A stretch of DNA of 64,000 nucleotides, from NCBI GenBank assembly GCA_016124735.1, contig WGMZ01000007.1, positions 124,001-188,000 on the forward strand. Reading direction: 5' to 3'. Shown here piece after piece: positions 13,390-29,264 of this stretch; positions within the stretch are counted from its first letter, which is position 1; every line of letters begins with the position of its first letter. The DNA comes from Bacteroidota bacterium. Its GTDB lineage: Bacteria > Bacteroidota > Bacteroidia > UBA8524. The notes beneath the pieces were generated by a model. The model saw only the letters and a program-made list of their open reading frames with translations. It did not search any database and had not been told where the DNA came from. A program made the position numbers and the translations under genes.

Positions 13390-14484
13390 TCAGACTGGCA
13401 ATTCCGACTTCTGACCCGGTATCTCCTGTATCCGAAATACATTGCCTGAAACGCGGCGAGTGGGAACCTGTTCTATTTCTTCCTCTAGAATACATTTCCA
13501 GGAGTTCGGGTCTTCAAATACTTCTTTTAAAGTGAGGATTCTTCCGGCGGGAATCCGCTGTTCTATGAGTTTTTGGAAGAGCATATCCCGGTTAAAATGG
13601 ATGGAATGTTCATTGAATAAATCCTGCAAAGCTACCCTGTTGCGGACCCGGGAGGCATTGTCGATAAAACGCGGATCATGGCTTGCTTCTTCCATATGAA
13701 GGATCTCGCAGAGATGAGCGAATTGCTTATCGTTTCCAATGGCCAGTACGATTTTTTTCTGATCGGAGGTAAGGAGGTATTCGCCATAGGGGCAAATAGA
13801 TGGATGAAGCATTCCCATGGCTTCAGGCTCCACCTGATTCATTAGCCAGGAGCTTGCCTGGTTGGTTAGTCCCGACAAAGCAGCATCGTACAAGGAGACT
13901 TCCACCACAGAGCCCTTTCCGGTCAGCATTCTTTCCATCAATGCGATGAGTAGCCCTTCTTTTAATTGATGGGCTGCCAGTTCATCTATCATGGCCACGG
14001 GCAATTTTGCATGCTGAGTTGGGGTACCACAAAGGTGGATATAGCCGGTTTCTGCCTGAAGCACAATATCAAAGGCAGTACGGTCGGATTCTTCTGAAAA
14101 ACCCGAGATACGGCCTTGAATCAGGTGTGGGAATTTTTCGGCAATCTTTTGTTTTTCCAGATGGAACTTTTTATCGTCGCCGTGCTTAAAATTTGATAGG
14201 ATTATATCAGCATCTTCCAACTCGGCATACAGAGAGGCAATATCCTCTTCATTTCCGAGATCCAGGCTTCTGATTTCTTTGCCATAATTGGCAGAAGCAA
14301 AATAGGATGAAACCCTGCTGTTTTGCCGATCACCCTCATTTTTCCAGGATCTGGTAATATCACCATTGCCCGGTTTCTCGAATTTTATCACCCGCGCTCC
14401 GGCTTCCGCAAAGAAGGTGCCCACCAGAGGACCTGCCAATACGGAGGCCAGCTCAATTATTTTTAGTTCTTTTATACTTTTCAT
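13390..14484 (-). CDS. CaiB/BaiF family CoA transferase
   Basis: IIELASVLAGPLVGTFFAEAGARVIKFEKPGNGDITRSW, SLDL, YDAALSGL. Confidence 0.9.
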   Translation of the reverse strand: MKSIKELKIIELASVLAGPLVGTFFAEAGARVIKFEKPGNGDITRSWKNEGDRQNSRVSSYFASANYGKEIRSLDLGNEEDIASLYAELEDADIILSNFKHGDDKKFHLEKQKIAEKFPHLIQGRISGFSEESDRTAFDIVLQAETGYIHLCGTPTQHAKLPVAMIDELAAHQLKEGLLIALMERMLTGKGSVVEVSLYDAALSGLTNQASSWLMNQVEPEAMGMLHPSICPYGEYLLTSDQKKIVLAIGNDKQFAHLCEILHMEEASHDPRFIDNASRVRNRVALQDLFNEHSIHFNRDMLFQKLIEQRIPAGRILTLKEVFEDPNSWKCILEEEIEQVPTRRVSGNVFRIQEIPGQKSELPV

Positions 14485-14804
14485 GCCTTCATCGCTCCAA
14501 TGCTTAAAATTTTATAGAAGTATCCAACAAATAAAATAAAACTGATAACCATGATTCCGAAAACCTGAGAGCGAATCATTTTTAACAGGGGATCCATCTG
14601 CCCTTGTGGTATGAAATATATAATTAATCCTACTGGGAAACCACCAATCACTGCCGCCCAAACAGGAAAAGTGAGATTGAGGAACCAATTGAAACCGGTA
14701 TAATTGAGGTTATTGTGTTCCATAAAGATGCTTATCATCAGATTCAGCAAGAGTATCATCAGGCCAAAGTTGAGGAAACGAGGATGAATTTGTAAGGATT
14801 TCAT
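14481..14804 (-). CDS. Small membrane protein
   Basis: 3 predicted TM segments. Start placed at ATG 14804 because a -7 box lies at 14811-14818, downstream of the computed 14822 start. Confidence 0.6.
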   Translation of the reverse strand: MKSLQIHPRFLNFGLMILLLNLMISIFMEHNNLNYTGFNWFLNLTFPVWAAVIGGFPVGLIIYFIPQGQMDPLLKMIRSQVFGIMVISFILFVGYFYKILSIGAMKA

Positions 14805-14810
14805 TAGCGA

Positions 14811-14818: not shown

Positions 14819-14943
14819 CCAAGATTCTACTGATAAAGGAATACAGTAGCTATATGTAAAAAATGAATACCACGAAAATGACTCTCCTTTGTAATGCCGC
14901 CTTTAATTGATGAGAATAGTCCTGTTTCTTTTTTTTATTGTAT

Positions 14944-15310
14944 GTTCATTTTGTATTAATACAAAATGAACCAAAAAATCAAGGCCAAAATAAGCTTCCC
15001 CGCTCTCTGTTTTTTTCTTAACGGTCGGCCATTGCATCTGGCCTCCCTAAAAAAAACATCACGCCAACGCGCGGCCCGCATTTTGGCCAGCCCACCCGCG
15101 AGAAGCTTATCAATTTCTTACTGACTGAGATGTTAGCTTAAGCTGGCGTAAGCAATAGGCGCCTAGCTTCCGTCCCGAATTTGTCGGGAGAGTACCCGCT
15201 GCCTGACGGAGCGTGAATCCCGCACGTGCGGGATAGCAAAGGAAGGCTTAGCGGGTCATTGAGGAAGCAAGCGCGATTTTTTTCTTCCTTTTTTTCTAAA
15301 AAAAGGAAAT
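14944..15310. repeat. Palindrome-rich non-coding region (candidate dispersed intergenic repeat)
   Basis: 28-bp perfect palindrome GTTCATTTTGTATTAATACAAAATGAAC (14944-14971), 18-bp perfect palindrome ATCCCGCACGTGCGGGAT (15217-15234), hairpins at 15135-15144, 15150-15169, 15173-15189 and TTCCTTTTTTT/AAAAAAAGGAA near 15288-15311; no convincing ORF. Confidence 0.65.
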
Positions 15311-15420
15311 AGATTAAAGGAAAAATGGATCAAGAACCCTTCAATAAAAATGTTTTATGGGAAATAAACGGATACACATGGCGATGAATGATGATGACTG
15401 GACATAGTCAATTAAATCAC

Positions 15421-15428
15421 TAACTTTG
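15421..15428 (+). promoter_or_regulatory. Bacteroidota -7 box (TAACTTTG)
   Basis: Exact TAnnTTTG, 21 nt before ATG 15450; shows the computed TTG start at 15426 is not the true start. Confidence 0.6.
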
Positions 15429-15449: not shown

Positions 15450-15914
15450 ATGGCAAGAAAAAAAGGGGCCACTGTTGCGAAAGCACCAGTACAAAAAAAA
15501 TCAATTCCAACGAATAAATCTGTTGAACAATTATACAGTCAGTTGGTAACCTTGATGAAGAAAAACAAAGTTTCTAAGCGTGAATCTGCAGAAAAACTTG
15601 GAATGAGCTATCAGGGATTTTTGAATTCTTTTAACCACCGCAATCTAAAATTAGATGCATGGTACGATTTGAGTGAATTGGTAAATAAGCCATTTGTTGC
15701 ACGTTTTGAATCCGCTAAAACAGCTGCTGCTATAGAAGCAGGAGAGCAGGAAGTTCAAACATCAGCAAGCGCTGCACATGTTCAGTCGGATGATTTTACT
15801 GCATTACGATTGAAGAATGCAGAAGAAAAAATCAGCATTTTGGAAAAACAAATTGCAGCATTGGAATCGCAGATTCAGGACAAACAAACAATCATTGAAT
15901 TGATTCGTAAGTAA
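15450..15914 (+). CDS. Small HTH-like protein with basic N-tail and C-terminal coiled coil
   Basis: MARKKGATVAKAPVQKKS...MKKNKVSKRESAEKLGMSYQGFLNSFNHR (HTH-like) ... LKNAEEKISILEKQIAALESQIQDKQTIIELIRK heptads. Confidence 0.75.
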   Translation: MARKKGATVAKAPVQKKSIPTNKSVEQLYSQLVTLMKKNKVSKRESAEKLGMSYQGFLNSFNHRNLKLDAWYDLSELVNKPFVARFESAKTAAAIEAGEQEVQTSASAAHVQSDDFTALRLKNAEEKISILEKQIAALESQIQDKQTIIELIRK

Positions 15915-18161: not shown

Positions 18162-21100
18162 CTAGCGCAATACGGTTATGTTTCCGGTCAGAATTCCGGA
18201 AATCTTTTCTCCATGCAGATGATATTCATAGTATACCTGTATGGCATATACATCCTGTTGCGCAGGCTGCCCTTCGAAACTTCCATCCCAACCCGGAGAA
18301 TCGATGGTTCCTTTGTACACAATTTCTCCCCATCGGTTGAAAATGGTATAATTCATTACCTCCAAATCGAATTGCACCGGAAAATACACCGGGTGCAAAT
18401 CATCTTTATTGGGCGTAAAGGCATTGGGAAGATAGATGCGACACAAATCATTGAGGAAGCTTACTGTAATGGAATCCGTTGCTGTTCCACAAAGGTTAGT
18501 CACGGAAACATAGTAGGTGCCAGGACTATTGATCCGATGATCTGCACGGGTTTCCTTGCCATTCCAGAAATAACGACTCCCCCAGAATGTAAGGTCAAAA
18601 GGTATAAATTCGTTTTTGCACAAAGTGGTATCGGGACCCAGTTCGACCTTCGGAAATGGATACACCTGGGTGGCTTGATACATGGAATCAGCGCAGCCAT
18701 TTACTTCTACCCAATACTTTACCGTGTCGTTCCATAAATTGGTCGGTACATATTGCGGGTCTACCACATTCGGACCGCTAAATACTCCGCCGGGAGTATT
18801 AGGAGTAAGCGTAACCGGATCTTCGTCGTTGCAGAAATAACTTTTTAATCCGCTGAAACCGGGATCGGGCATGGGTTTGATATATACTTTTCGCGAGGTG
18901 GTATCGTAGCATCCATCAATGCTCCTGACCCTAAGCGTCAATGTTTTTTCACCCACGCTGCTGAAATGATGCTCGAAACTGGAGTCTTTGGAAATGCTGT
19001 CGCTATCGATATTCCAATAGTACCCATTGATTCCTGTACTGTCGAAACTATTGCTTGAGCCGTGATAAAAATTGGTGCTGAGGCATTGGGCTGAATCATT
19101 GTAAAGGATGCTAGCCGTTGGTTTAGGAAAGACCCGGATGCTTTTTCGGATGGTGTCCCAGCAATTGCTGTCCGATTGGGTGAAATGAACTACCTGATAC
19201 CAACCTGGCTGGTCGAAATGGTGGGGCGTAAACTGCCCCGTTGCAGTAGTCCCGTCGTCGAAATCCCAGTGATAGGAGATGAGTCCGCCGTCATCAATAC
19301 TGCTTCTTTGAAAGAATTGAAATTCCTGGTAATTGACACACTGTGCCGAATCATTCACATCATAATTGGCCTTCGGTTTAGGATAGACATTCACTTCTTT
19401 ATCCAGTGAATCGGTGCAGGCATGATCGCTGATTAAAACCTGCCGTACAATATAGTCGCCATAGGGACTAAAATAGAAAGATGGATTGGCAGATGTGTCT
19501 TCTCCCAATGTTCCAAAACGGTAGATATAGTGCAGATTTCCATAGTCTATACTCGATTGGTCGCTAAATTCAAAGTCCTGTGTATTGACGCATTGTCCTG
19601 CATCATTGATGGAGAATCCCGGATTTGGTTTCGGGTAAACAATCATTGTATTGCTGAATGAATCACTGCAGCCATGATTGGATGTTTCCTTCAATTGCAC
19701 CAAATAGGTATTTTGGGTCGAATACACCACTACATTGTCTTTATTCAAAGATGATTGTCCATCGCCGAAAACCCACTGGTGCAGCAGTGTTCCATAAGGA
19801 ATACTACTCTGGTTGCTAAAAATAAACCGGTTTCCATTGAGACATTGGTCTGTGTCGTTTGTGCTGAAATACACATCGGGTTTAGGATAGATGATGACAA
19901 TGTGTTCACTGGTATCATAGCAACCAAGTTGGCTTTTTGCATACAAAATGACATCCACGGTATCGTGCTTGAGGTAGAAATGTATTGGTTCGAAATCTGT
20001 GCTGCTGTCTCCATCTCCAAGCATCCATTTGTAGGTCAGAGTACCTGTTGAAATACTGCTGGTATTCGTAAAGACAAAATTCTGCGTATTAAGGCATTGA
20101 GTGCTATCGTTGATTGAAAACAGGGAATGGGGTTTAGGATGAACTGTCAGGGTGTTTTGTAATGTGTCCCAGCAATTCATTTCTGTTTGAACCAGGAAGC
20201 TTACCGGATACGTACCTGGGTTCATGTAGGTTCTGGCAGTATCCAGATCGCCGCTGTCGCGTTTGTTCTCCAAATCCCAGAAATAATGGGAGATATTTCC
20301 TGAACTCAACTGTACCTGAGCATGGAATTGAAAGTCATTGGTGTTGACGCATTGGGCGGTATCGTTAATAATCCAGCTGGCAATGGGTTTGGGAAATACC
20401 ACCATGTCATGTTTCACAGAATCAACACAGCCCTCGTCGCTGGTAGCTAGCAATACCGCGCGCATGGTGTCGGAATATTGGTAAGTATGAGCTGGATTTT
20501 CCAGGCTGCTGCTGTCTCCATCACCAAAATTCCAGACAAAGGTTTGTGTTCCCTTGCTCAAGGTGCTGCTATTGCTGAATTGGAAATCATTCGTATTCAG
20601 GCATTGATCGGTGTCGTTTACACTGAAAAAGGGGAAAGGTTTCGGAAATACTTCAATGTCCAATTCCCCTGAATCCAGGCAGCCTTTATCACTTTCGAGG
20701 TAAAGATGAATGGTATAGAGTCCGGGATTTGCATAAGGGTGTGTAAAAGAGGCTAGCTCACTACTGTCGCCGTCACCCAATTTCCATTCCCTGCTGTAGT
20801 TCCCTTCTGCCAGCGTGCTGCTATCAGCCAAATCAAAACTTTGTGCATTGATGCATTGAAAGCTGTCATTCGACCAAATTTTGGTTAGTGGGTTTGGATT
20901 GATTCGAACATTCTGGTCTAAGGTGTCAGAACATTGATGGAAAGTAGTGGCAATCAATCGAACGCTATAATCTCCAAAGACCGCATACTGATGGGATATT
21001 TGGGTACTGGTATCACTTTGTCCATCTCCGAATTCCCATGTATAGAAGAGCTGCCCTTGTGCCAGCTGACTTTGATTGGCAAAATCAAACGAATGCCCGT

Positions 21101-24100
21101 TAAAACATTGCACAGTGTCGTTGATGCTGAAATGTGCCTGCGCCTGCGGATATACTTCGTAGGTACGGAATGCCGAATCCTTACAGCCGTATTCAGATTC
21201 CACATGCAATTCTGCCGGGTACACTCCGAATTGCCCATAACTGTGCAGTACCGATTGGGCGGTGTCGCTGTTTCCATCTCCGAATAACCAGAGCCGACTA
21301 TGACTTCCGTAAGGAAGAAGGGTGGAGTCTTTAAAATCGAATACATGATTCCGGAAACAAAGTAAGCTGTCGTTTATGCCAATTTTTGCATCCGGATTGG
21401 GGTATACAATCATAGTTTCCTGGAAGGTGTCGTTGCAGGCAAATGGAGTGATGGCAACCAACTGAACAGTATAAATGCCATAAGCCGAATAGCTGTGATT
21501 TACCTGAGTCGCAGTGTCCTGGTTTCCATCTCCAAAATCCCATGAATAACTCAGACTGCCTTTTCTGACCGAGCTCAGGTTCTGAAGAATGAACAAATGA
21601 TCACTTAAGCATTGGTCGCTATCGTTTACACTGAAATCGCTGCTTGCCTGTGGGTACACTGTATAGGTGCGGAAGGCTGAATCCAGGCAGCCGTGACTGG
21701 ATTCGATGCGAAGAGCGACCAGATAACTGCTGTCTGAGGAATAGTGATGTGTGCTAATGACAGATGTATCGGTGGTGGCATCGCCGAAATTCCATACCCG
21801 AACCCAGCTTCCATAAGCAATTTGGGAGGAATCGACGAACTTGAATTGATGGTTTCTGAAACAAAGATTGCTGTCCGACAAGCCAATCCAGGCTTGCGGG
21901 TTGGGGAATACCGTCATAGTATCCAAACTTGTATCCGCACATAAATGAGGAGTGTTTGCAATTAAGACGACGGTATATATGCCTGGAAGAAGGTAACTGT
22001 GACTCGGGGCTGTGGCGGTATCCGTATTGGTGTCGCCAAAACTCCATGAATAAGACAAGCTGTCCTGATGAACCGAACTTAAATTCGTTAGAAGAAACAG
22101 ATTTCCACTTTCGCATTGCTGACTATCGTTCACAGTAAAGGCACTCTGTGCCTGCGGATAGACGTAAATATCCTGGAATGCAGAATCCGCGCAGGCGTGG
22201 CTGCTCACAATTCGCAGCGCGAGGTGCCAAACACTATCCTGCGAATAGTTGTGGACTGCGAATTGATTGGTGTCCCCGGATCCTTCTCCAAGAGACCATT
22301 CACGAGTCCAGTCGCCATAAACAATTGTACTGCTATCAATAAAAGTAAATTGATTGTCGCGATAACATAAAGCGGTATCGCTAAATGAGATCCTGGCTTG
22401 GGGCATTGGGTATACTTCCAGGTTTCGTTCGCTTGTATCTTCACAGCCAAAGTTACTTTGGGTGCGGAGTTGAATTGTATAAACTCCTTCTAAAGCATAG
22501 GAGTGAGAAGGGTTCTGATTACTGCTACTGTCTCCATCGCCAAATTGCCAAAACTGACTGATGCTTCCATTTTTGATCGAGCTTGAATCATAAAAATTAA
22601 ATTGGTTGCCACTTAAACATAAGGCCGTATCACTCATACCGAAATAGGATACAGGCATAGGATAGGTAATGCTCGTATGACTTGCCGTATCCGAGCAAGC
22701 GGAATCGGATTGCACTATCAGATAGATTTGCCAGGTGGAATCCTGGCTGTATGTATGGTTTGTATCCTGTACCACTGCGCTGTCCTGATCGCCAAAATAC
22801 CAGGTCGACGTATAGTTTCCTTTGGCAACACTGCTGCTGTTGGTTAGCTGAAACAGATTGCCTGCCAGACATTGAGTGCTGTCGTTGACACTGAATGATG
22901 CACGGGGGGAGGGATTTATATATACGGTTTTCTCTAAAGTATCCCGACACCCCTGATCACTCAATTGAACCAATCGTACAACAAAACTTCCTGTGTCACT
23001 ATAAGCATGGGTATAAATGCTATCTGTGGAACTATTTCCATCTCCCGGATACCAGCTTCGGCTAATGCTTCCATTTTGCACAGTCGAAGTATCGGTAAAG
23101 GTGAAGTTATTTTCGTATTCGCATTGGAAAGGATCATCAATGGCGAAGGCAACCTCTATAGGAGCAAACACAGTCATGGTATGCAATGTCGTATCGTAGC
23201 ACGATTGATCCGATTTGACTACCAGAGAAACATTGTAATTTCCGTAGCTTGAGTAAAGGTGGACAGGAGCAATTGCGGTATCCGTGCTGCCATCTCCAAA
23301 ATTCCAGTTTCGCGTATAGCTTCCGCTCGATAGGGTGCTGAGGTCTGAGAAGGCAAAAGATTCAAAATCCTGGCACTGCATGCTGTCATTCACGCTGTAG
23401 GAGGCAGCAGGAATGGCATATACACTCACGCCGCCGATGGCGGTGTCTTTGCAGCCCCACACGCTACTTACGATTTGCGTAATAAATTTAGCACCCGGAC
23501 TACTGTACTTAAGTACCGGATTTTTCTGGGTGGATGTGTGTCCATCGGACAGACTCCAGGAATAACTCAGCGGCATTTCTGAATTGGTGCTCAGGTCGGA
23601 GAAACGAATCGTGTCGTATTGGCATTGATTGGAAACAGTAAAAGATGCCTTTGGGTAACTATGGATGCGAAGACTTCGACTTGCTGTATCCATGCAGCCG
23701 CCGATATTCGTAACAATCAAAATAATGGTATAGCTGCTGTCTCCCTGGTAATCATGGAAAGGGTCCTCCAGATTGCTGCTTCCCCCATCGCCAAAATCCC
23801 ATTGCCAGTCGTAGATGAGGTCATTGAAGGCATTGGTAGAATCTTTAAAGAGGGTAGTTGTGCCAAGACAAACCTCATTGAAACTAAACCAGGCAACAGG
23901 CTGAGGAGCGATAACAATTTCCTTTCCCAGTGTGTCTTCACATCCATGTTCACTGTAGGTATGCAGAATCACAAAATAGTGCCCGGTATCGCTGTAATAA
24001 TGAGTAGGTTCCTGCTGACTGGATGTGTCTCCATCTCCAAATTCCCACAGGAAACTAAGGATGCTGTTATTATCCGTAATGCTGGTATTGGTGAAACTGG

Positions 24101-27100
24101 CGCTCTTATTTGCACAATTGGTTGTATAACTGAAGCCGGCATTCGGGGTTTCATAAACGGAAACGAGTCGAAGGCTGTCCCATGCGGTCGAATCAGGGTA
24201 GGTAGCCTCACAGGACACGGTGATGCCATTTTGATTGAAACTGCCCTGTGCGGTCAATGTGGGTATAAAATTGCCATACAGCTCATAATCGAAATAGAAT
24301 GCGGTATCAGAGGTGGTGCTCAGTACCGTATTTCCTGAATCGTTGAATTGCCAGATATAATTGGTGGCATTGCTGCTCTCGTTTTTGAAATAAACACGCA
24401 AAGGTTCGCAGCCTATGCTGTCTGACTGAAAAGTAAAGTTAGCAATAGGTCCCACTATTACCAAGGGATGGCGGACCGAATCACTGCAGCCTGTGGTATT
24501 GGTTACTTTTAATTGTACCGAATAATCTCCTGCCGACAGGTAGCGTTCCGGGTTTTGCAAACTGCTGTTAGCCAAACCGGATCCAAAGCTCCATACCCAG
24601 GTTATCAGACTGTCATCTGGTTGCGAAGTATTTGCAGTGGAATCATACAATGAGCTTAAATCTCTGAAGGCAATGGCCTGGGGACAGAGAAAGGTGTCCT
24701 GCGAGGTACTGAATTCAGCATATACTCCAAATACGCGGACGGAATCCTGATAATTGATGGTATCCCAACAAGACATGCTATCACGGAAAGCCACGGAGAT
24801 GAGGTAGTTTTTTATCGATGAATTGTATACCCAGGGTTCTGTCCCTAAATTCTGATATCCATTTCCATCGTCAAAATTGAAGAAGAGCTCTTCTTTATTG
24901 GCAGATAACCGGCTGCTGTCTGCCCAGTAATTGTAACCATCTGTCAGGTAGAATATTTGAGGCAACACCTGGAAACTGTCGCCTACACAAAGACTCATGT
25001 CGGAAAATGACAAGGAGGCATTGACACCAATATTGATACTCATTGTATCGGAACCGGTACATCCATCTTTTGTGAAAATTTGATTGATGATCTGGTAAGA
25101 TCCCGAATTAGCAAAAGTATGTTGAATGGTATCGGTTGTATTGGTATCGGTTTGCGAACCATCTCCCCAGTCCCAAATGATTCTGTATACTGAATCCTGA
25201 TTCGCGGCATTCAGGTAAAAATCAAAGCTGCTGCCTTTGCAGTAATATGAAGAGGAATCATAGCTCGACCCAAAACGGGGATCCATAAAGTTAAAATGGA
25301 GAATATTGTGGTAATAGACTGTATCCCGGCAAACATTGCCCAGGGAATCATCTCCATTTTGAATCACCAGTCCAATCGTAACATAGCCATTGGGGTCGCA
25401 TGGAGCATTGTCGTAATCGTAATTATGTGTTTGAATAATAGCTTTCCAGTAATTATTGAAATTCCCTGTATTCGCGGCACAAGTAGAATCCCACATGATC
25501 CAGAAACTCTGTTTCCCGCATAAGGGCTGTGTTTCCGACAAGCTGACACTAATTTCTTTATCCGCCTCCGGTCCCAGACAGGTTTTACTCTGTATGGTAA
25601 AAAGGCCTTTTAAGCCCAAACTGCTGTCGGGTCCGGCAACTGGTGCTGTAAGTGAAATGTTTTCAGAAACCGTATCACTGCAACCATTGATGGTGTCGTA
25701 GGCAATTAAGCTCATATAATAGCAACCCTCATGGTTCAGGTCGTACATATGTTTGGTGTTGAAGCTATCTGTGGCATAGCGGCAATTTCCCGTAGCATTT
25801 ATACCCGCCAGATAATTCGTGGTGCAGCTGGCTGCGAAGGCATCTCCAAAATTCCAAAAGGCGCCATGCATGGTACTTCCGAAGTAATCGGAATTGTTCA
25901 CCGCGTAAACGGTATCGCTTACCTGGCACTGGAATTTATTGGTAATGGCACCTATTCTTGCATAAGGGCCTGTAATAGTTAGTGTATCCAGGTATTTAAG
26001 ACTGTCGCATCCATTGTAGCTGATTAATACGTAAGGATGATAAACCCCCGGAAATTCAAAAGAGAATGAGGTGCTGAAATTGCTTCCCGTATCGGTCGAT
26101 TGCCATACCCATTGAATCGTGGCACCGCTAATGGGTGTTTGTGAAGCATAAATACGGTTATTGCTGGAGCAGGTAGATTTGATGGAGTCGATGGATGCAT
26201 CTACCACATAATTTACGTTGGTAATATTTGAACTGCCAAAACTGCTGTCTTTGCATCCATCTGAATTTTCTGCCCAAAGTTTAACAGTAAAGCTACCGTT
26301 ACTGGTATACGTGTGTTTTACTGACGACCAATTGCTTGAATCTTTAAGTCCGTCGCCAAAATCCCAATAAAAAGAGCTGACATCTGGCGGATTCTGATTG
26401 CTGGAATTAGAAAAATCCACCTCTGTACTGAAACAGCCATTGCTTATACTTTGAGAAAAATCCGTGTCAAATTCCGGATGAATCACAACTGCTGTATCTG
26501 TACTGATACTTTGGGAGCATCCGTTTGAATCGAGCATTTGGACGGCAATATAATAGGAACCACCTGCGGGATCACTGTAGGAATAGCATACAAATGTATC
26601 TGATGGGGCGTCAGTCACATCCACATATCCGTCGTCAAAAAGAACCCTTCGGCGTTGGGTATTGCTGCTTTGATTCAAGAGATGAACACAGACTTGATTT
26701 CCTTTATAACATTGGGTATCATTGTCAATCACAAAATTGGCTCCGGGCAAAGGAAGCACCCGGATGGAGTCGTAATCGCTGACGCAATAAGTGCCGTCAA
26801 GGAAGGTGGTCTTCAGGTAATTGGAATAATTACCGGCGCCGCTGTATTGATGACTCGGAGAGGTGGAGCTGGAAGTAAATCCATCCCCAAAATTCCATTG
26901 GTAAGTTGCAATACCTGTATTCGAGCTAGATAATTGATAATCAACATTTAATCCGCGACATACGCTGTCTGCGCTGAGACTTATCTGAGGTTTTAGGTAA
27001 ATATGGGTCGATTGGGTGCTGGTGTCTATGCACCCGGATCGGGTGGTAAAAATCAGCGTAACATTGTACACACCGGTATCAGAATATGCGTGCGAAGGAT

Positions 27101-29264
27101 TGAAAGCGAAACTACTGTCGCCATCGCCAAAGCGCCAGAGATAGCTTTGAACACTGTCCTTCGAATCGAGATCGAGGCTCGGACTAAACGAAGTGGAAAG
27201 TCCCAAACAACCATTGCTGTATTGAATCGTGGCTGAAGCATCTTTGTTCACCTGCATGGTTTGAACAAGGGTATCCCGGCACCCTTGACTGTTCGTTGCC
27301 ACCAACCGGACGTGGTAAGTGCCGCTCAAGCTGAAATCATGGCTTGGATTTGCCACCGAGTCTGTGTTGCTGTTCCCTGAAAAAACATCATTGAAATACC
27401 AGGAGTAAGACACCGCACCATAGGAAGAGTCATGGAATACAAAATGATTTCCAGGATAACACTGGATTGAATCGTTCACAGAAAAGTTGGCATACAACGT
27501 AAACAAGGTAAGCGAATCGTTCCAAACAAAGGTATCGGCAGGAGAGGAGCTGAGAATGCGCAGTTTGTAATGGGTCGAGCTGGAGAGCCAACCTGGCATG
27601 GCTACCGAAAGGCTGTCTGTTCCTGTTGTCGAATCGCTAATGCTGTAGAGATTTGTCGGCGTCGCAAATTGTCCGGAACTATCGCTGAGTTGAAGTGTGT
27701 AGGTGTTTCCGTAATTCCGGGCGACCAGCTTATTAAAGCTGATTCGCAGGCTATCACCCCCACAAAATGTATGGGTATTCGGATTGTTCCAGGTTAGTTC
27801 ATAGGTAGAAAATTTAAGAAGGTAAGCGTCGTAATCGCCGGAACTGCCACCCAGACTATTTTGGTGGCCATTGTAACTGATGGCATTTGCACTGTAAGTT
27901 ACACCAGCGAAATAGATATTGCCCGCAGGATCAGTGAAAGCAGACCTTCCAAAATCCTGAGACGTTCCACCAATATAGGATGCTGTCTGACGAAGCCCGG
28001 CGCTATCAAATTTGATCCAGTATGCGTCCTGGTTCCCGCCACCATATGTATCTTGATAGCCGTTAAAACTGATATTACTGGTACTTGCCGTCGTCCCGGT
28101 AAGGTAGATATTATCCGAAAAGTCCGTAGCAATTTCCTGTCCGTCGTCTTCTCCGATTCCTCCGTAATATGTAGCCCAAATTCGGGCCCCGCTGCTATTG
28201 AATTTTACCAGGAATGCATCTTTGTCGCCACCAAAGCTGGTCTGAAATCCGTTCATGGATATGCTGCTGCTTCCGGTTTGTCCGGAGAGATATACATTGC
28301 CCGAATGGTCAGCGATGGCCATGGAGCGGTGTTCCGCTGAGCCTCCTCCATAATAGGTTCCCCATTGAAGGCTGCCGCTGCTGTCGTATTTTTCAAGAAA
28401 TGCATCCCCATTCCCACCATAACTGGTCTGGTAACCTCCACTGGCAATATTGTTATAGCTACTGGTGTATCCGGATAGGTAAACATATCCCTGGTCATCC
28501 GTGGTCACAGAAGGTCTTTCTTCGGTCGAACTTCCGCCACAATAGGTTCCCCAAATCAGGTTGCCATTACTGTCGAATTTTACCAGAAAATTATCCGAGT
28601 TTCCACCATAGCTGTTTTGGTGCCCGTTGTAACTGATTCCATTGGTGCTGTTGGTATATCCGGCTAAATAAACGCCGCCGAACCTATCGGCTGCCACCGC
28701 CCATCCGTAGTCATCGGAACTGCCACCATAATAGGTCGCCCAGATCCTGTTTCCATTGTGGTCAAATTTAACCAGGAAAGCGTCGCTTCCGCTATTCTTG
28801 CTGTTTTGGTAGCCATTGTAGCTTATCCCTGTGCTGCTGGTGGTTTGTCCAACCAGGTATACATTCCCAACCGGGTCTACTGCGATGGATTTTTCATCGC
28901 CGGCCATTCCACTGTAATAGGTGGCCCATTGCCGCACTCCGGCCGGACTAAACTTCGCAACAAATGCATAAAGGCTTCCATTACCGCTGTAAGAGTTCAG
29001 ATATCCATTATAAGCGATTGCATTGGAGCTCTTGGTGTTACCGGCTAAATAAACATAACCCGAATCATCTGTTGCAACAGTGGTTGCGTAGTCGCCCGAT
29101 GTGCCACCATAATAAGTAGCCCACAATAGGTCCTGGGCCGACACGAGAGAAATTGTACTGAACACCAGGAAGGAAAGCCAAGCCCACGCGCACCTTGAAA
29201 ATGTCGCTGCTCTGGCGAACATAAATGCAACGATGCCACAGACATTTCGGATCCTTTTCAACAT
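18162..29264 (-). CDS. Giant (3700 aa) secreted protein: N-terminal SBBP-like repeats, ~30 PKD-type domains, gliding-motility-associated (T9SS type B-like) C-terminal domain
   Basis: Seven [AG]TYYGG..D..  repeats at N-term; about 30 WxFGDGxSS..xPxHxY units; C-term RIYLPNAFTPNKDDLHPVY...MNYTIFNRWGEIVYKG...GWDGSFEGQPAQQDVYAIQVYY. Confidence 0.93.
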   Translation of the reverse strand: MLKRIRNVCGIVAFMFARAATFSRCAWAWLSFLVFSTISLVSAQDLLWATYYGGTSGDYATTVATDDSGYVYLAGNTKSSNAIAYNGYLNSYSGNGSLYAFVAKFSPAGVRQWATYYSGMAGDEKSIAVDPVGNVYLVGQTTSSTGISYNGYQNSKNSGSDAFLVKFDHNGNRIWATYYGGSSDDYGWAVAADRFGGVYLAGYTNSTNGISYNGHQNSYGGNSDNFLVKFDSNGNLIWGTYCGGSSTEERPSVTTDDQGYVYLSGYTSSYNNIASGGYQTSYGGNGDAFLEKYDSSGSLQWGTYYGGGSAEHRSMAIADHSGNVYLSGQTGSSSISMNGFQTSFGGDKDAFLVKFNSSGARIWATYYGGIGEDDGQEIATDFSDNIYLTGTTASTSNISFNGYQDTYGGGNQDAYWIKFDSAGLRQTASYIGGTSQDFGRSAFTDPAGNIYFAGVTYSANAISYNGHQNSLGGSSGDYDAYLLKFSTYELTWNNPNTHTFCGGDSLRISFNKLVARNYGNTYTLQLSDSSGQFATPTNLYSISDSTTGTDSLSVAMPGWLSSSTHYKLRILSSSPADTFVWNDSLTLFTLYANFSVNDSIQCYPGNHFVFHDSSYGAVSYSWYFNDVFSGNSNTDSVANPSHDFSLSGTYHVRLVATNSQGCRDTLVQTMQVNKDASATIQYSNGCLGLSTSFSPSLDLDSKDSVQSYLWRFGDGDSSFAFNPSHAYSDTGVYNVTLIFTTRSGCIDTSTQSTHIYLKPQISLSADSVCRGLNVDYQLSSSNTGIATYQWNFGDGFTSSSTSPSHQYSGAGNYSNYLKTTFLDGTYCVSDYDSIRVLPLPGANFVIDNDTQCYKGNQVCVHLLNQSSNTQRRRVLFDDGYVDVTDAPSDTFVCYSYSDPAGGSYYIAVQMLDSNGCSQSISTDTAVVIHPEFDTDFSQSISNGCFSTEVDFSNSSNQNPPDVSSFYWDFGDGLKDSSNWSSVKHTYTSNGSFTVKLWAENSDGCKDSSFGSSNITNVNYVVDASIDSIKSTCSSNNRIYASQTPISGATIQWVWQSTDTGSNFSTSFSFEFPGVYHPYVLISYNGCDSLKYLDTLTITGPYARIGAITNKFQCQVSDTVYAVNNSDYFGSTMHGAFWNFGDAFAASCTTNYLAGINATGNCRYATDSFNTKHMYDLNHEGCYYMSLIAYDTINGCSDTVSENISLTAPVAGPDSSLGLKGLFTIQSKTCLGPEADKEISVSLSETQPLCGKQSFWIMWDSTCAANTGNFNNYWKAIIQTHNYDYDNAPCDPNGYVTIGLVIQNGDDSLGNVCRDTVYYHNILHFNFMDPRFGSSYDSSSYYCKGSSFDFYLNAANQDSVYRIIWDWGDGSQTDTNTTDTIQHTFANSGSYQIINQIFTKDGCTGSDTMSINIGVNASLSFSDMSLCVGDSFQVLPQIFYLTDGYNYWADSSRLSANKEELFFNFDDGNGYQNLGTEPWVYNSSIKNYLISVAFRDSMSCWDTINYQDSVRVFGVYAEFSTSQDTFLCPQAIAFRDLSSLYDSTANTSQPDDSLITWVWSFGSGLANSSLQNPERYLSAGDYSVQLKVTNTTGCSDSVRHPLVIVGPIANFTFQSDSIGCEPLRVYFKNESSNATNYIWQFNDSGNTVLSTTSDTAFYFDYELYGNFIPTLTAQGSFNQNGITVSCEATYPDSTAWDSLRLVSVYETPNAGFSYTTNCANKSASFTNTSITDNNSILSFLWEFGDGDTSSQQEPTHYYSDTGHYFVILHTYSEHGCEDTLGKEIVIAPQPVAWFSFNEVCLGTTTLFKDSTNAFNDLIYDWQWDFGDGGSSNLEDPFHDYQGDSSYTIILIVTNIGGCMDTASRSLRIHSYPKASFTVSNQCQYDTIRFSDLSTNSEMPLSYSWSLSDGHTSTQKNPVLKYSSPGAKFITQIVSSVWGCKDTAIGGVSVYAIPAASYSVNDSMQCQDFESFAFSDLSTLSSGSYTRNWNFGDGSTDTAIAPVHLYSSYGNYNVSLVVKSDQSCYDTTLHTMTVFAPIEVAFAIDDPFQCEYENNFTFTDTSTVQNGSISRSWYPGDGNSSTDSIYTHAYSDTGSFVVRLVQLSDQGCRDTLEKTVYINPSPRASFSVNDSTQCLAGNLFQLTNSSSVAKGNYTSTWYFGDQDSAVVQDTNHTYSQDSTWQIYLIVQSDSACSDTASHTSITYPMPVSYFGMSDTALCLSGNQFNFYDSSSIKNGSISQFWQFGDGDSSSNQNPSHSYALEGVYTIQLRTQSNFGCEDTSERNLEVYPMPQARISFSDTALCYRDNQFTFIDSSTIVYGDWTREWSLGEGSGDTNQFAVHNYSQDSVWHLALRIVSSHACADSAFQDIYVYPQAQSAFTVNDSQQCESGNLFLLTNLSSVHQDSLSYSWSFGDTNTDTATAPSHSYLLPGIYTVVLIANTPHLCADTSLDTMTVFPNPQAWIGLSDSNLCFRNHQFKFVDSSQIAYGSWVRVWNFGDATTDTSVISTHHYSSDSSYLVALRIESSHGCLDSAFRTYTVYPQASSDFSVNDSDQCLSDHLFILQNLSSVRKGSLSYSWDFGDGNQDTATQVNHSYSAYGIYTVQLVAITPFACNDTFQETMIVYPNPDAKIGINDSLLCFRNHVFDFKDSTLLPYGSHSRLWLFGDGNSDTAQSVLHSYGQFGVYPAELHVESEYGCKDSAFRTYEVYPQAQAHFSINDTVQCFNGHSFDFANQSQLAQGQLFYTWEFGDGQSDTSTQISHQYAVFGDYSVRLIATTFHQCSDTLDQNVRINPNPLTKIWSNDSFQCINAQSFDLADSSTLAEGNYSREWKLGDGDSSELASFTHPYANPGLYTIHLYLESDKGCLDSGELDIEVFPKPFPFFSVNDTDQCLNTNDFQFSNSSTLSKGTQTFVWNFGDGDSSSLENPAHTYQYSDTMRAVLLATSDEGCVDSVKHDMVVFPKPIASWIINDTAQCVNTNDFQFHAQVQLSSGNISHYFWDLENKRDSGDLDTARTYMNPGTYPVSFLVQTEMNCWDTLQNTLTVHPKPHSLFSINDSTQCLNTQNFVFTNTSSISTGTLTYKWMLGDGDSSTDFEPIHFYLKHDTVDVILYAKSQLGCYDTSEHIVIIYPKPDVYFSTNDTDQCLNGNRFIFSNQSSIPYGTLLHQWVFGDGQSSLNKDNVVVYSTQNTYLVQLKETSNHGCSDSFSNTMIVYPKPNPGFSINDAGQCVNTQDFEFSDQSSIDYGNLHYIYRFGTLGEDTSANPSFYFSPYGDYIVRQVLISDHACTDSLDKEVNVYPKPKANYDVNDSAQCVNYQEFQFFQRSSIDDGGLISYHWDFDDGTTATGQFTPHHFDQPGWYQVVHFTQSDSNCWDTIRKSIRVFPKPTASILYNDSAQCLSTNFYHGSSNSFDSTGINGYYWNIDSDSISKDSSFEHHFSSVGEKTLTLRVRSIDGCYDTTSRKVYIKPMPDPGFSGLKSYFCNDEDPVTLTPNTPGGVFSGPNVVDPQYVPTNLWNDTVKYWVEVNGCADSMYQATQVYPFPKVELGPDTTLCKNEFIPFDLTFWGSRYFWNGKETRADHRINSPGTYYVSVTNLCGTATDSITVSFLNDLCRIYLPNAFTPNKDDLHPVYFPVQFDLEVMNYTIFNRWGEIVYKGTIDSPGWDGSFEGQPAQQDVYAIQVYYEYHLHGEKISGILTGNITVLR
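20890..22410 (-). repeat. Higher-order (two-domain) tandem repeat block within the giant PKD gene
   Basis: Six consecutive ~250-nt PKD units alternate between type A (IGxxDSxLCFRNHxFxFxDS...YGxxxRxW...SSHGCLDSAFRTYTVYPQA) and type B (FSVNDSxQCxxxxLFxLxNLSSV...GxLSYSW...CxDTxxxTMxVxPNP). Confidence 0.8.

Follow-up and report, generated by a model that had tools for sequence, protein, structure and literature searches.

The palindrome-rich gap between positions 14805 and 15449 of the window, by which we mean the whole 64,000-nucleotide stretch of DNA that was analyzed, very probably holds one copy of a ~500-bp non-autonomous IS1595-family MITE, whose interior carries a cargo of structured repeats. 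The element is assigned to the IS1595 type because of its copies, its ends, the 8-bp duplications, the resident IS and an empty site. A first, sequence-only reading of this DNA had guessed at a dispersed repeat between 14944 and 15311, either a non-autonomous MITE/REP-like element or a structured RNA. The MITE part of the guess is supported, as the element is multicopy, has terminal inverted repeats (TIRs), 8-bp duplications and an autonomous IS1595 partner, and is missing from an orthologous site. The limits lay inside the element but were too narrow. The element and its surroundings can be described as follows:

14481 to 14804, minus strand: flanking gene for a small membrane-like protein, with an orthologue in the congener G001
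14869 to 14876, no strand: left 8-bp duplication remnant, ACCACGAA, matching the right remnant at 5 of 8 positions and weak when taken alone
14877 to 15380, no strand: the whole MITE copy, 504 bp, from the comparison of near-full copies and the TIR scan
14877 to 14900, plus strand: left TIR, degenerate, AATGACTCTCCTTTGTAATGCCGC, by its family consensus CATGAGTCTCCGCTTCAATACCAC
15357 to 15380, minus strand: right TIR, read on the minus strand as CATGTGTATCCGTTTATTTCCCAT, from end comparison and scan
15381 to 15388, no strand: right 8-bp duplication remnant, GCGATGAA, paired with the left remnant
15421 to 15428, plus strand: candidate -7 box in the promoter of the downstream gene, TAACTTTG, from sequence only
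15450 to 15914, plus strand: flanking gene of 154 amino acids, with an orthologue in G001

A similarity search of the host genome (G000; 3.11 Mb in 53 contigs; query 14930-15320), which the first reading had proposed, found the element at about 40 dispersed loci among the matches listed, where some matches at contig ends may be two halves of one copy and the draft assembly may divide copies between contig ends. Besides the window copy, 19 near-full-length copies with 80-95% identity are present among these matches. The element ends were fixed by comparing ~19 near-full copies and by scanning for TIRs. Similarity in the flanks extends past the earlier limits, reaching CATGAGTCTCCGCTTCAATACCAC on the left side and GTGGGAAATAAACGGATACACATG on the right side, and the copies are bounded by imperfect inverted repeats of ~24 bp (CATGAGTCTCCG... 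/ ...CGGATACACATG). Scanning G000 with the end pattern at up to 3 mismatches gave 49 sites versus a single site for the reversed control. No transposase ORF is found within the MITE. Two further loci of ~600 bp (L043, C34:123457-124060; L044, C43:57956-58554) have IS1595-like ends on both sides and an interior that is akin to the MITE chiefly in the left half, and are probably a second MITE subtype.

Target-site duplications, which had also been proposed as something to look for, are present as A/T-rich direct repeats, exactly 8 bp long, that flank the copies. The flanking repeats match at 77.5% for length 8 and at ~31-43% for the other lengths between 2 and 14. The mean duplication match is 6.2 of 8 as against 2.9 of 8 for shuffled flank partners (maximum 3.6 in 2000 shuffles), in a test of 35 end pairs in which several elements were counted on both strands. 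Perfect duplications of 8/8 were found in younger sister copies (ACTTTTGT, AAGTAATA, TTTATTTT, ATAAAAAA, AGGATTTT and AAATTTCA). A/T-rich 8-bp duplications were reported for another IS1595-family IS, in Actinobacillus (PMC12561309).

An autonomous IS of 1004 bp is located in the same genome (C12:22144-23147), bracketed by the end pattern of the MITE and by a perfect 8/8 duplication (AAATCCAT). Its 311 amino acid ORF is an IS1595-family transposase (PF12762, 2e-16; PF12760; NF033547, 1.4e-44). A second multicopy IS1595, with the end and TIR CATGACTGTCC, is found as fragments at eight contig ends of G000, where it breaks the assembly (at the starts of C7, C8, C20, C24, C53 and C14 and at the ends of C32 and C42). 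The left end of the MITE is closest to the left end of the C12 element (score 19, shuffle maximum 13, over 24-25 bp) and its right end is closest to the left end of the second IS (score 16, shuffle maximum 12), while some of the end cross-comparisons stay within the shuffle maximum. As the two MITE ends resemble different IS1595 subgroups, the exact IS partner is uncertain.

The congener G001 has both neighbor orthologues in identical order, with a gap of 118 bp and no element. The gap in G000 is 645 bp; after subtraction of the 504-bp element and one 8-bp duplication (512 bp) there remain 133 bp, versus the 118 bp in G001. Neither the transposase nor the MITE is found in G001, G002 and G003, and G004 has a transposase that is 56% identical together with a partial interior match. 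With so few genomes, this pattern of co-presence of transposase and MITE is only suggestive.

The copy in the window is old, since its own duplication matches at only 5 of 8 positions and its left TIR is degenerate, and for the same reasons the argument for a MITE leans on the sister copies. The sequence at the locus gives no sign that this copy alters a neighboring gene. Between the element and the downstream gene a TAnnTTTG-like box has stayed intact; we take TAnnTTTG to be the Bacteroidota -7 consensus, and TAACTTTG is a candidate only. Elsewhere in the window (18162-29264, minus strand) there is an ORF of 3700 amino acids which, by eye, contains many PKD-like repeats and whose C-terminal end resembles gliding-motility-type proteins.

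The question that follows concerns the interior of the element. The left interior of the MITE consists of a hairpin followed by CCAAAAAATCAAGGCC, and distant Bacteroidota were matched by it too. A covariance model of this signature was built (R1; 45 nt, in the orientation GCCTTGAT-YTTTT-hairpin, with a cut-off of E <= 0.01). The modules in the window copy are:

14941 to 14985, minus strand as the inferred functional strand: core 1, the phylum-wide signature of hairpin and CCTTGAT tract (R1 65.5 bits, E 1.1e-10)
14944 to 14971, no strand: 28-bp perfect palindrome, which is the core 1 hairpin (sequence and sister alignment)
14983 to 15088, minus strand: body of core 1, with GGCCAAAAT/ATTTTGGCC closing it (inverted repeat I21)
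15150 to 15311, plus strand: core 2, an inverted second module with a terminal hairpin-like A/T stem (architecture and sister modules)
15173 to 15189, no strand: TCCCGA/TCGGGA hairpin, absent from 4 of 13 aligned copies
15217 to 15234, no strand: 18-bp palindromic hairpin module (sister alignment)

Core 1 carries the hairpin plus an upstream CCTTGAT-YTTTT tract. The perfect 28-bp palindrome was correctly located by the sequence-only reading; by arithmetic with equal base use, ~2e-4 such palindromes are expected by chance per 64 kb. It can be explained by a mutated loop: the loop is ATTAAT in the window copy and CTTGAT in most sister copies, and this change turned the hairpin into a perfect palindrome. 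The mutated loop (ATTAAT, not ATCAAG/CTTGAT) is not complementary to the upstream tract, a complementarity that is intact in most sisters. In the core 1 body the pairs are kept in 12-13 of 13 copies and nearly all are invariant.

Core 2 scores only marginally with R1 (20.5 bits, E 0.049). The right half of the window copy ends in GATTTTTTT and an A/T hairpin, and sister copies have a CTGTTTGAG...GCGAGTTT module where the window copy has ATCCCGCACGTGCGGGAT. Clear inverted pairs of the element are present in another genome, G401. Judged from its architecture, core 2 is probably the same kind of module as the phylum-wide family, placed head-to-head with core 1. In place of the palindrome at 15217-15234, other copies carry an unrelated hairpin of ~50 nt (TATTTTCTTCCCTGTTTGAGCGAA...GAAGCGAGTTTGAAGAAAATAG).

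The smaller structures that had been read from the letters are also real. The AGCTTAAGCT motif (15135-15144), the hairpin AAGCAATAGGC/GCCTAGCTT (15150-15169), TCCCGA/TCGGGA nested in TCCGTC/GACGGA (15169-15210), the 18-bp palindrome and ACCCGCT/AGCGGGT (15194-15256) were all found in place, and the last hairpin, which had been put at ~15288-15311, exists about 3 bases further left (arms 15285-15295 and 15298-15308). It had also been claimed that there is no convincing ORF, and the longest one inside is indeed 52 amino acids. The folding z-score of the palindrome-rich stretch is -4.25, with none of 100 dinucleotide shuffles equally stable.

The signature is widespread. R1 matches were found in 104 of 396 Bacteroidota genomes and in 51 of 172 genera, often with at least 15 matches per genome. 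A 41-nt pattern scanned over named genomes gave 84 stretches, nearly all of them in Bacteroidota in the broad sense (Parabacteroides, Tannerella forsythia, Zunongwangia, Pedobacter, Balneolaceae, Salinibacter and Ignavibacteriales), and one Negativicutes MAG that is possibly mis-binned. The window-specific sequence, used as a pattern over the named genomes, had no match. The 41-nt signature was not found in viral contigs, and an association with viruses was dropped, as the matches of the 18-bp palindrome in viral contigs stood in unrelated contexts. Full elements are ~165-220 nt long with sharp boundaries at GGCC and at the hairpin, and outside the G000 lineage they are found without recognizable IS1595 ends or visible duplication.

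Orientation relative to the neighboring genes is random (25/19/15/12), with only 1 of 72 scored contexts within an ORF. A search for a recurrent neighbor protein that may act as mobilizer gave none that is shared, the neighbors being ordinary host genes. Several arrangements of copies were seen: short tandem arrays of three with a 453-bp period in Pedobacter helvus (L217, 6796-7742), of three ~385 bp apart in G134 (L128, 1596-2406) and of two with a spacing of 395 bp in Pedobacter ureilyticus (L251, 4046-4481), and six within ~31 kb in one orientation with unrelated flanks (L125/L126, G325:C1:595-631 kb). In related Balneolaceae (L101, L182 and L212) the signature lies beside what is seemingly one mscL-like gene, and some Balneolaceae copies may have been inherited vertically at orthologous positions.

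The fold of the phylum-wide element is supported by covariation, in rows that were gathered by model-based search. The hairpin together with the pairing of its loop to the upstream tract is 99.3% paired over 64 distinct sequences and shows 104 double-change cells versus 19.5 in shuffles (0/500), and sliding the pairing by one column reduces it to ~45% paired. Taken alone, the loop-upstream helix shows 11 double-change cells versus 1.1 in shuffles, and exists in three compensated versions (CTTGAT:ATCAAG, CTTGAC:GTCAAG and CTTGAA:TTCAAG). This pairing may be alternative or intermolecular, since no linker remains once the six loop bases are paired. In 10 full elements, several of them from one genome, 31 of 53 predicted pairs show compensatory changes. 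Covariation thus supports the hairpin, the loop-upstream pairing of pseudoknot type and the long irregular stem. By eye, internal-loop motifs of one type (CTGTTTGAG/GACGAGTT and CGTTAAG/TTTTAGC) and of another (ACCGGT/GGACCAT) can be seen. At one helix position 15 sequences have a G-U pair on the modeled strand, where the opposite strand would give A-C; such wobbles on one strand suggest a function as RNA or single-stranded DNA, though building R1 on the modeled strand gives the strand call a mild bias.

A covariance check had been proposed as well, and its outcome is divided: covariation is found in distant relatives but is weak among the copies of G000 (RNAalifold term +2.6; 5 double-change pairs, mostly in the swapped hairpin). 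The view that the leading motif is a dispersed Bacteroidota repeat holds, in that it is part of a covarying element found across the phylum and is carried here as cargo. The sequence is therefore neither single-copy nor lacking in homologues or covariation.

How did such an element come to be in this gap? Most likely, a resident IS1595 transposase acting in trans would insert the MITE into A/T-rich intergenic sites, and the MITE would spread passively. As for the interior, the phylum-wide element is most simply read as structured RNA or ssDNA that is mobile. We propose, tentatively and at slightly less than even odds for the whole chain, that it belongs to an undescribed Bacteroidota-wide structured class (170-220 nt, with a pseudoknotted 3' hairpin and a long stem whose internal-loop motifs are conserved), that this class functions as RNA or ssDNA and is spread by a yet unknown mechanism, and that in the G000 lineage an inverted pair of it came to lie between IS1595 ends and was then re-amplified as a MITE.

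One other option is that a structured RNA or ssDNA repeat moves by its own means and that the IS1595-like ends are incidental, acquired once in the G000 lineage. The sharply bounded elements without such ends in the 104 genomes fit this option, yet in G000 the 8-bp duplications sit exactly outside the IS1595-like ends and these ends match the resident IS, so that we regard it as unlikely.

Another option, which we find very improbable, is a REP/BIME-type repeat mobilized by a Bacteroidota TnpA_REP (RAYT, subclass 2.6). The element is palindromic, intergenic and multicopy, with inverted pairs resembling REPINs, and subclass 2.6 is mostly found in Bacteroidetes and is reported to be flanked by atypical secondary structures (PMC6006769). 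However, 30 Y1-transposase loci in element-bearing genomes gave one strong signature match, ~1 kb from the gene, the genes of subclass 2.6 type have other flanking palindromes, no Y1 match is present in G422, a genome rich in the element, and TIRs with 8-bp duplications are foreign to REPs. The element was rejected as a REP of a RAYT, as its copies do not flank a RAYT gene at the loci tested. REP hairpins carry a GT[AG]G foot, or one specific to their subclass, at the base; the aligned signature hairpins mostly start with GTTC, GTTA, GTAC or GTCC. Genes of the YIHxNP-type Y1 group (L159, L163, L166, L171, L173 and L174) have their own palindromic flanking repeats, which differ per gene and are fitting for RAYT/REP pairs. 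An ordinary, immobile regulatory region or terminator whose palindromes arose by chance would account for hairpins between two genes, but can be practically dismissed given the ~40 copies elsewhere among the matches listed, the empty orthologous gap of G001 and the folding z-score.

The preferred reading, an IS1595-family MITE with structured cargo, can be compared to known systems. IS1595-family MITEs (ISXO2-like, Zn-ribbon plus DDE transposase) likewise have TIRs common with a resident IS, 8-bp A/T-rich duplications, no transposase gene and tens of intergenic copies. Unlike them, the interior here consists of structured repeat modules with exchangeable hairpins and not of a deleted IS, and the ends are an apparent mix of two IS1595 subgroups. 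REP, BIME and REPIN repeats are also palindromic, intergenic and of high copy number, with inverted pairs in some genomes, whereas here there is no association with Y1 genes at the tested loci, the fold is a multi-motif one of 170-220 nt, and the element in G000 has TIRs and 8-bp duplications. The BrickBuilt MITE of Porphyromonas gingivalis is likewise a MITE in Bacteroidota, and by its description is built around a minisatellite, unlike the element here (PMC4596501).

With the structured RNAs of Rfam the element shares covarying helices, pseudoknot-type pairing, internal-loop motifs and one-strand G-U wobbles; it differs in that no family matched, its orientation to genes is random and it is known here from sequence alone. 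None of the 4227 Rfam families reaches its gathering threshold, and relaxed thresholds gave merely chance miRNA-type matches for A/T hairpins. An IS110 bridge-RNA reading was dropped, since no conserved target is apparent in the flanks. In the open literature the element was not found described and its sequence strings led to unrelated papers; it may already be named in the subscription literature, ISfinder or preprints, which lay outside the search.

The MITE is thus new but of known mechanism, and its cargo is a widespread repeat that is undescribed in Rfam and in the searched open papers. In mechanism the MITE is ordinary, though it offers a clear case of the IS1595 type from a draft genome of Bacteroidota. 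Of greater importance is the cargo, a covarying structure with a single-strand bias that is present in roughly one quarter of the Bacteroidota genomes sampled. As its hosts include cultured Parabacteroides, Tannerella, Zunongwangia and Pedobacter, its transcription and spread are directly testable.
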